A stretch of DNA of 38,828 bases from Centipeda noxia ATCC 43541 (lineage in GTDB: Bacteria; Bacillota; Negativicutes; Selenomonadales; Selenomonadaceae): the NCBI RefSeq assembly GCF_000160555.1, contig NZ_GG749279.1, forward strand, positions 472,828-511,655, given 5' to 3'. A program made the translations under genes and the position numbers. The notes below the pieces were generated by a model, which worked only from the letters and a program-made list of their open reading frames with translations, made no database searches and was not told the DNA's origin. Every line of letters begins with the position of its first letter. Position 1 is the first letter of the stretch. This document shows positions 19,348-20,527 of the stretch, piece after piece.

Positions 19348-20007
19348 TCAGAGCCCAAGGTCGCCCATTTTGATTTCTTCCACACGCCCATGCTCAATCT
19401 CGAAAGCGAAGCCAACCGTTGGATCTTCTTCGGAAAAGTAGATGTAGTCCTCCCCATAGATCATGCTTGGCTCACCATACACACGACGGAGCTCCTCCAA
19501 AGAAGTACCGATACAAACGCCCTTCCCCGAAGCAAGTGTACTGCGCTCTGATATCTTGACCTGGCGTACAAGGCCATCTACGAAATCCAAGGACAAGCCG
19601 TCTGTGTAATCATACTCAACAACTTCTTTTCCCGCATAACGCATGGAGCGCTCCGACTCCACTTCAAATGGCGCTCCATAACACGCACGCACATCATCCT
19701 CCGAAGCCCCATAAGCGATATCGCCAAGTACCAGCCCGTCGCGTGCAATGCGTGCAGCTGATTTTTGTTCCTCTGCACGATGCTGACGCAATGTCTCCGC
19801 CTCGCGCTTGGCAGCATCATCCGCCGAAAGCGTCTGCTCCACAGAATCACGTGCGATGGTGATCCTTTTCTCTTCATTCGTATGCGGCGGCACTGTCACA
19901 GTACTGCAAAACGCATCCATTGTAAAGTTCGCAGCGACACCGGCAATGACTGCAATTCCGACAAACGCCGCACCCATTCGAATATTCAACGGCCGTCTCT
20001 CCCTCAA
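19348..20007 (-). CDS. Exported/anchored protein with two BamE-like repeats (paralogue A)
   Basis: A 219-residue protein I cannot name. Residues 11-30 are a hydrophobic signal anchor; 45-90 are charged and probably a coiled linker. Two repeats follow: GDIAYGASEDDVRACYGAPFEVE near residue 94 and CIGTSLEELRRVYGEPSMIY near 158, each leading to a beta-rich stretch that ends in a valine/isoleucine-lysine motif (VRQVKI, VEEIKM). The pattern G-x-S-x-x-x-V-x-x-x-Y-G-x-P resembles SmpA/OmlA (BamE) domains. It is a paralogue of the next gene, 40 bases upstream. Start is uncertain: TTG at 20007, TTG at 19989 (with GGGAG upstream), or ATG at 19977. Confidence 0.7.
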   Translation of the reverse strand: MRERRPLNIRMGAAFVGIAVIAGVAANFTMDAFCSTVTVPPHTNEEKRITIARDSVEQTLSADDAAKREAETLRQHRAEEQKSAARIARDGLVLGDIAYGASEDDVRACYGAPFEVESERSMRYAGKEVVEYDYTDGLSLDFVDGLVRQVKISERSTLASGKGVCIGTSLEELRRVYGEPSMIYGEDYIYFSEEDPTVGFAFEIEHGRVEEIKMGDLGL

Positions 20008-20047
20008 AATCCTTTTATGAGCTGTATCACTGCCGCCGTGCAGATAC

Positions 20048-20527
20048 TCAGCGAATCACGCCCATCTTGATCTCGTCGACACGATTATTCTCAATTTCAA
20101 AGGCAAAACCAATCGTCTGGTCGCCATCCGCAAAGTAGATATAATCATCCCCGCGTATTGTATCCGGCTGTCCGTAGGCCGCAATCAGCGTATTTACATC
20201 CGTGCCGACAGCAATATTTTCCTTTGTCTGAATACCGTTGCGGGCATCAATTTCAATGCGGCGTGCAGCACCATCTACAAAGGTAATGTCAAAGCCGCTG
20301 CCATACTCCCATTCGACTGCCTGTCCGCCCGAATAGAAGGGATTATATTTTGTCTCAACTTTATGTGGGGCTCCATATACGCTCCGCACATAATTCTCCG
20401 AAGCCCCATACTCGATGCCGCCAACAACGAGCGCATCTTGCGGCACAGACGCCTGTGCCGTCGTCCCTGCCCCAAGGAGACCGACGCCAAGAGCAATGCC
20501 CGCAATTTGCCTGCCAATTTTAAACAT
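20048..20527 (-). CDS. Secreted protein with two BamE-like repeats (paralogue B)
   Basis: A 159-residue protein with a signal peptide (hydrophobic residues 8-22, likely cleaved after AQA near residue 26). Its mature part is two repeats: GGIEYGASENYVRSVYGAPHKVE and VGTDVNTLIAAYGQPDTI, each followed by a short beta-rich stretch ending in RRIEI or VDEIKM. It aligns along its whole mature part with the 219-residue neighbour. AAGGAG lies nine bases before the ATG at 20527; the longer frame to 20647 runs into a terminator hairpin and is unlikely. Function unknown; periplasmic or envelope location is inferred. Confidence 0.75.
   Translation of the reverse strand: MFKIGRQIAGIALGVGLLGAGTTAQASVPQDALVVGGIEYGASENYVRSVYGAPHKVETKYNPFYSGGQAVEWEYGSGFDITFVDGAARRIEIDARNGIQTKENIAVGTDVNTLIAAYGQPDTIRGDDYIYFADGDQTIGFAFEIENNRVDEIKMGVIR

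Follow-up and report, generated by a model that had tools for sequence, protein, structure and literature searches.

Two adjacent minus-strand genes in Centipeda noxia ATCC 43541 encode exported proteins, P0001 and P0002, in each of which a helix motif resembling that of BamE occurs twice. They lie in a stretch of 38,828 nucleotides of contig NZ_GG749279.1 that was analyzed as a whole (the window), and the locus raises the question of whether the pair assists outer-membrane assembly, as the original prediction proposed, or has another role in the cell envelope. The evidence favors, with a probability of about 0.6, paralogous extracytoplasmic double-unit proteins of the BLIP-like superfamily (BLIP, SmpA_OmlA/BamE, PepSY, and DUF2874) that likely bind a protein partner in the envelope.

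P0002 lies 40 bp downstream of P0001 (Table 1). Inspection and hydropathy indicate export by a signal sequence in P0001 (cleavage after AQA, at AQA-S, by inspection) and by an N-terminal hydrophobic anchor in P0002, in keeping with a superfamily of exported proteins. P0001 contains no cysteine, and the P0002 linker region, among 60 residues, includes 12 that are basic or His and 11 that are acidic. The earlier description of one secreted protein and one anchored protein with a charged linker, both apparently exported, was accurate, and its coordinates were exact. A second TTG (19989), 18 nt downstream of the TTG at 20007, has a better-placed Shine-Dalgarno-like sequence, coincides with an L-N-I/M-R sequence common to orthologues, and may be the true start. 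The gene upstream of P0001 encodes pyruvate:ferredoxin oxidoreductase (by eye). A terminator-like hairpin parts the pair from it, and P0001 and P0002 are therefore probably co-transcribed as a separate unit; the hairpin statistics are weak, with 3 terminator-like sites found versus 1.6 (standard deviation, 1.2) in shuffles.

Table 1. Features of the P0001-P0002 locus, with positions in the window
Feature	Position	Strand	Basis or detail
P0001, secreted double-unit protein, 159 aa, ATG start	20048..20527	-	ORF
P0001 Sec-type signal peptide, residues 1-26	20450..20527	-	Inspection and hydropathy
P0001 unit 1, residues ~32-94	20246..20434	-	Motif GASENYVRSVYGAP at 20366-20407; AF2 model
P0001 unit 2, residues ~96-158	20054..20242	-	Motif GTDVNTLIAAYGQP at 20165-20206; AF2 model
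P0002, membrane-anchored double-unit protein, 219 aa from TTG at 20007	19348..20007	-	ORF
P0002 hydrophobic anchor, residues ~12-30	19918..19974	-	Mean Kyte-Doolittle 1.8 over 19 residues
P0002 charged linker, residues ~33-88	19744..19911	-	Hydropathy and AF2 model
P0002 unit 1, residues ~91-153	19549..19737	-	Motif GASEDDVRACYGAP at 19669-19710; AF2 model
P0002 unit 2, residues ~155-217	19357..19545	-	Motif GTSLEELRRVYGEP at 19468-19509; AF2 model
Terminator-like hairpin, 16 pairs, between upstream gene and P0001	20601..20640	-	

The two units of each protein are homologous and reflect an internal duplication. A six-frame translation of the whole window contains four copies of the relaxed motif G-x5-[VL]-x3-Y-G-x-P, two of them in P0001 and two in P0002, and none of 20000 residue shuffles per protein contained two copies (one copy was found in 5 and 7 shuffles). 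Profile-profile comparison of unit 1 with unit 2 gave a probability of 97.1, an E value of 5.7e-11, and a score of 50.1 over 51 columns, versus a best score of 20.2 (probability 30) among 50 column-shuffled controls. Motif count, shuffles, and profile comparison thus confirm the original observation of paired adjacent proteins with two pattern copies each. The pattern itself was drawn too strictly: the relaxed form fits all four copies, but S/T at motif position 3 is found in three, the second copy of P0001 having D. The strands of the four units end in I-E-I, I-K-M, V-K-I, and I-K-M.

AF2 models were obtained for mature P0001 (27 rows; mean pLDDT 95.1, pTM 0.88) and P0002 (22 rows; pLDDT 77.5 overall, with block means of 92 to 97 across both units, <50 at residues 1 to 50, and about 63 to 79 in a linker helix at residues 53 to 82). 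Both models contain two units, each formed of one helix and four strands; a unit of one helix and four antiparallel strands, in tandem in BLIP and DUF2874, is the arrangement by which the BLIP-like superfamily is recognized. A Foldseek search of the PDB with P0001 was led by SAV1118 (4h0a, E 7.7e-4), the SCP-domain protein 4ifa, the putative BLIP-like protein 3d4e, and the antifungal effector 9j9w; OsmE ranked 7 (E 0.65) and BamE ranked 15 (E 1.2).

Pairwise alignment with VIA-align placed P0001 nearest to SAV1118 4h0a (Z 11.7, rmsd 2.6, 120 residues), 4ifa (Z 11.6, rmsd 2.8, 113 residues), YjgB/DUF4309 of Bacillus subtilis (4ygt; Z 10.6, rmsd 3.5, 112 residues), and YfeY of Escherichia coli (2qzb; Z 9.7, rmsd 3.6, 115 residues), followed by 9j9w (Z 8.2, rmsd 4.2, 118 residues) and TagH 9a4o (Z 8.1, rmsd 4.0, 104 residues). 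Matches with a Z of <8, which may reflect just a common arrangement, were those to TagH 5bnd (Z 6.3, rmsd 4.7, 94 residues), 3d4e (Z 5.0, rmsd 9.3, 99 residues), OsmE (Z 4.5, rmsd 1.5, 55 residues), BamE 7txx (Z 4.4, rmsd 2.8, 68 residues), and BLIP (Z 3.4, rmsd 4.8, 86 residues). The first seven matches of P0002 were the same as those of P0001, and its best BamE row was 5d0o_E (Z 5.0, 64 residues). The four best solved matches were identical for both models, at Z 9.7 to 11.9 over 112 to 121 residues. The best matches span the whole module, and the alignment with BamE is roughly as long as one unit; the whole module therefore resembles known double-unit proteins. Taken as a whole, the modeled module has its nearest counterparts in the N-terminal part of SAV1118, DUF4309 (YjgB), and YfeY. 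Structure prediction, which had been proposed as a check, consequently upheld a BamE-like unit, but it is SAV1118, YjgB, and YfeY that match the whole module. The statement that no named family has two such units in tandem is contradicted by YjgB/DUF4309, YfeY, and the N-terminal part of SAV1118, as well as by BLIP and DUF2874 (PMC2954215).

The fold and its tandem arrangement are already known, and P0001 and P0002 reach the cut-off of no existing model in Pfam or NCBIfam. PF04355 (BamE), PF14504 (CAP_assoc_N), and PF14172 (DUF4309) do not match either protein at an E value of ≤10, and the single Pfam match of P0002, to DUF6023 (E 0.0022), is below the cut-off and lies partly in the linker. 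Relatives were represented by a profile, A1, of 36 rows, comprising P0001, P0002, and 34 rows hand-picked for spread from 65 domain rows. CAP_assoc_N, which we take to be the N-terminal region of 4h0a, matches 14 of the 36 members at an E value of ≤1 (best, 9.9e-7; curated cut-off, 29.3 bits), the most of any Pfam family. At the same threshold, BamE matches 8 (best, 2e-4), DUF4309 matches 7 (best, 6.3e-6), DUF2845 matches 6, and DUF3862 matches 3. The NCBIfam model ETEC_3214_dom matches 6 of 36 (best, 4.6e-4), the IsaB family matches 2 of 36 weakly, and PRK10718, the YfeY model, matches one family member (E 0.072). Together with OsmE and BamE among the fold matches, the PF04355 matches bear out the original view that the units are BamE/SmpA-like.

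A profile search of PDB sequences gave 7txx (Bartonella BamE, E 0.048) and 3d4e (E 0.076, spanning both units), neither of which is significant alone. Comparison by hhalign with single E. coli sequences scored 25.5 for YfeY (probability 19, E 0.0012, across the unit junction; not significant) and 18.9 for BamE (probability 4 over 21 columns), versus a maximum of 16.6 among six unrelated E. coli controls; with the single E. coli BamE sequence, the signal thus exceeds the controls but is weak. A single-protein search of genome contigs found no relative, and a narrower alignment recovered 16 loci. HAD phosphatases of ~365 aa (L033, L034, L035, and, by length, further rows) entered the first profile and were rejected as chance matches because the match falls between the HAD motifs; they were excluded from A1 and the tree. 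Locus counts rest on the first profile, and the same ORFs of L002 to L032 were recovered with P0001 and P0002 alone.

Relatives of P0001 were found in 86 of 121 genomes of the taxonomic family at an E value of ≤0.01, a count that includes the rejected HAD matches. The A1 profile matches 82 of 150 genomes of the class, in 41 of 70 genera, with 1 to 10 matches per genome, and 42 of 299 genomes of the phylum at an E value of ≤1e-4, some of these matches being partial. In the same 299 genomes, Omp85 exceeds its cut-off in 76: in 11 of the 42 A1 carriers and 65 of the 257 noncarriers (odds ratio 1.05, P 1.0). For the wider family, an association with BamA, whose co-occurrence across Negativicutes had been proposed as a check, is therefore not seen across the phylum. 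Outside the class, Omp85 was found in 3 of 34 carriers versus 63 of 255 noncarriers (odds ratio 0.29, P 0.048); within the class, Omp85 is present in all 10 genomes sampled, 8 of which also carry the family. The 31 carriers without Omp85 over the cut-off, 27 of which are at least 90% complete, are presumably single-membraned; one of them (G361) has an Omp85 match below the cut-off. Because the carriers from outside the class are only distantly related, these statistics inform on the module more than on the pair.

A double BamE that acts as a BAM accessory in Negativicutes and aids outer-membrane protein assembly would be in line with the PF04355 matches, with the appearance of BamE and OsmE in the fold comparisons (Z of at most 5.0, for P0002 and 5d0o_E), and with the Omp85/BamA gene in the genome of the window, but is very unlikely. 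P0001 has no cysteine, and Cys34 of P0002, after FTMDAF, does not fit the lipobox pattern; five orthologues (L053 to L056 and L059) have no cysteine there (by eye), and two others (L057 and L060) have G-C after the hydrophobic stretch. No outer-membrane gene was seen by eye within ~4 to 5 kb of the pair, and the same genome encodes a separate single-unit BamE-like lipoprotein ~4 kb from BamA. Since the family is not associated with Omp85 and varies in copy number, and since the pair does not fit the lipobox and lies in a gene context of this kind, a BAM role, and with it the outer-membrane assembly function first proposed, is not supported.

PF04355 exceeds its cut-off in 10 of 150 genomes of the class, and at least two of these matches are inside double-unit proteins (G007:C1 and G019:C1). 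In the genome of the window, it matches one other protein only, below the cut-off. The single-unit BamE-like lipoprotein (L129:5249-5731, minus strand; G000:C19 near 213859-214017; PF04355 E 6.2e-4, below the cut-off) lies in a cluster that contains, by eye, a glycosyltransferase gene, Skp-like genes, and LpxD. A sequence search of 150 genomes of the class recovered it in 2, one of them that of the window, and it is not established as the general BamE of Negativicutes.

The pair is conserved in the genus of the window, where P0002 was found in all 14 genomes and P0001 in 13, always adjoining; in the remaining genome (G085, locus L024), P0002 adjoins the oxidoreductase gene and there is no P0001 at the locus. 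The adjacent pair was found only in this genus. Among 16 loci from sequence records (L053 to L068), 8 (L053 to L060, from Centipeda periodontii and seven Selenomonas records) have both genes, and the other 8 (L061 to L068) are of the P0001 type, one of them (L064) with a 448-aa double-unit protein ~2 kb away. Among the closest homologues outside the genus (16 loci, L016 to L032 without L024), a second copy adjoins the first at L032 only, where an anchored copy lies beside a divergent secreted-looking one; the other 15 have one form alone within ~1.5 kb. The expectation that the pair would recur in related diderm Firmicutes was thus not borne out at these loci, whereas the family itself is widespread. 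Other tandem clusters of two to four copies occur (L048, L050, and L099), among them an array of four double-unit paralogues (L099) and one of three (L050), both from elsewhere in the class. The genome of the window also encodes a third double-unit protein, which is divergent (L089:1108-1767, plus strand; G000:C18:294724-295068; A1 E 7.2e-6, CAP_assoc_N E 0.0065).

This distribution bears on whether P0001 and P0002 form a hetero-complex, for example, an anchored sensor with a soluble modulator. Adjacent and probably co-transcribed genes, retained together in 13 of the 14 genomes of the genus, and the combination of both forms at L032 would agree with such a complex, but the occurrence of P0002 without P0001 in G085 and of single forms at 15 of the 16 outside loci makes it rather unlikely. 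A tree of 71 rows (excluding L003 and L069 to L072 as duplicates, HAD loci, rows with an E value of >1e-14 or <100 residues, and identical rows) groups P0001 with orthologues from other genera (97/88) and joins P0002 to anchored homologues that have a Pro-rich linker (97/79; inner fork, 89/34), with a secreted-looking row (L025) at the base of the latter group. The tree suggests an old split into secreted and anchored subfamilies. Both forms probably, though not certainly, predate the genus, as the tree rests on few columns and many of its forks are weak.

The gene neighbors of the pair are conserved within the genus, where present on the stretch covered, and give no functional hint. In nine loci compared across genera, no neighbors besides double-unit proteins were common; the ORF picker used for this comparison retains the longest frame and overlooks some genes. 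Conserved neighbors, with no adjoining toxin or secretion-system gene (by eye), argue against secreted interbacterial effectors or immunity-like proteins. That reading, which is highly improbable, draws on the antifungal effector 9j9w (Z 8.2 with P0001 and 9.0 with P0002), the toxin-immunity proteins 9uu1 and 6xtd (Z 5.2 and 4.9 with P0001), and the divergent paralogues in tandem arrays (L050 and L099), but Z values of 5 to 9 may reflect only a common arrangement.

Relatives place the module in diverse architectures: behind a PepSY domain over its cut-off (L081) and, below Pfam cut-offs or by eye, in beta-propeller-like proteins (L092 and L093) and in proteins that also carry a zinc ribbon and a membrane segment (L091 and L138). 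Two four-unit proteins (L139:765-2105 and L140:717-1919, both minus strand) seemingly contain two double-unit modules, the second partly matched; E values for the individual modules ranged from 8e-7 to 2e-11 when a small set of ORFs was searched. Across these architectures, the module appears to be separate and mostly C-terminal, as expected of a binding module.

For the favored reading, extracytoplasmic BLIP-like proteins that bind an envelope partner, P0001 would be free in the periplasm and P0002 would be anchored in the inner membrane, with the charged linker extending its module outward. The module might bind a cell-wall enzyme, a protease, or another periplasmic protein and could inhibit, stabilize, or position it. 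By analogy with BLIP, binding of a protein partner is the likeliest of the mechanisms considered; a small molecule, lipid, or glycan could be the ligand instead. A partial precedent may be found in CopD, a membrane protein with two PepSY domains that reportedly controls two penicillin-binding proteins (PMC10653890); according to that paper, the CopD homologue TseB binds PBP2A via its PepSY part in pull-downs. In the same paper, CopD binds through its membrane and cytoplasmic parts rather than its extracellular domain, and the fold therefore need not be the binding part.

A broader scheme, possible but doubtful, is that an expanded and unnamed family of extracytoplasmic BLIP-like double-unit proteins (free, anchored, lipoprotein, zinc-ribbon-linked, and four-unit) regulates envelope enzymes in Negativicutes, and that the secreted and anchored proteins of the window pair work as a two-part regulator. 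The fold family is known and its function has been shown in few cases, and a genus-conserved pair of one free and one anchored protein offers a convenient system in which to study, in a diderm Firmicute, what this module binds. The case for P0001 and P0002 as outer-membrane assembly factors of Negativicutes is lowered, and the family, present in more than half of the class genomes, could receive a model of its own.

Among the matches listed in a search of literature on BLIP-, BamE-, and DUF4309-type families, there was no description of the pair. In PMC2954215 (2010), the BLIP-like superfamily links BLIP, SmpA_OmlA, PepSY, DUF2874, and DUF3192, with BLIP and DUF2874 as tandem repeats, and is proposed to inhibit by binding partners. 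BamE/OsmE (PF04355) share the unit and the G...V...YG-P helix motif with P0001 and P0002 but are lipoproteins of one unit, with Z values of 2.7 to 5.0 in the rows listed. BLIP/DUF2874 (PF07467 and PF11396) and 3d4e have helix-plus-four-strand units as a tandem repeat, but the low Z values of BLIP (3.4) and 3d4e (5.0; rmsd 9.3) indicate that their units are probably placed otherwise than in P0001. YfeY (DUF1131), alike over 115 residues, differs in being annotated as a lipoprotein, and DUF4309 (YjgB) shares the double unit, although its model matches neither P0001 nor P0002. The remaining comparison is with CAP-domain proteins; PMC6568419 counts YlbC of B. subtilis among these and reports slow germination of a ylbC mutant. 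P0001 and P0002 have no CAP domain, their ORFs ending no more than ~3 residues from the last strand of unit 2, and are not matched by CAP_assoc_N as 14 of their relatives are, but their whole double unit aligns with the N-terminal module of SAV1118 (4h0a) and 4ifa.
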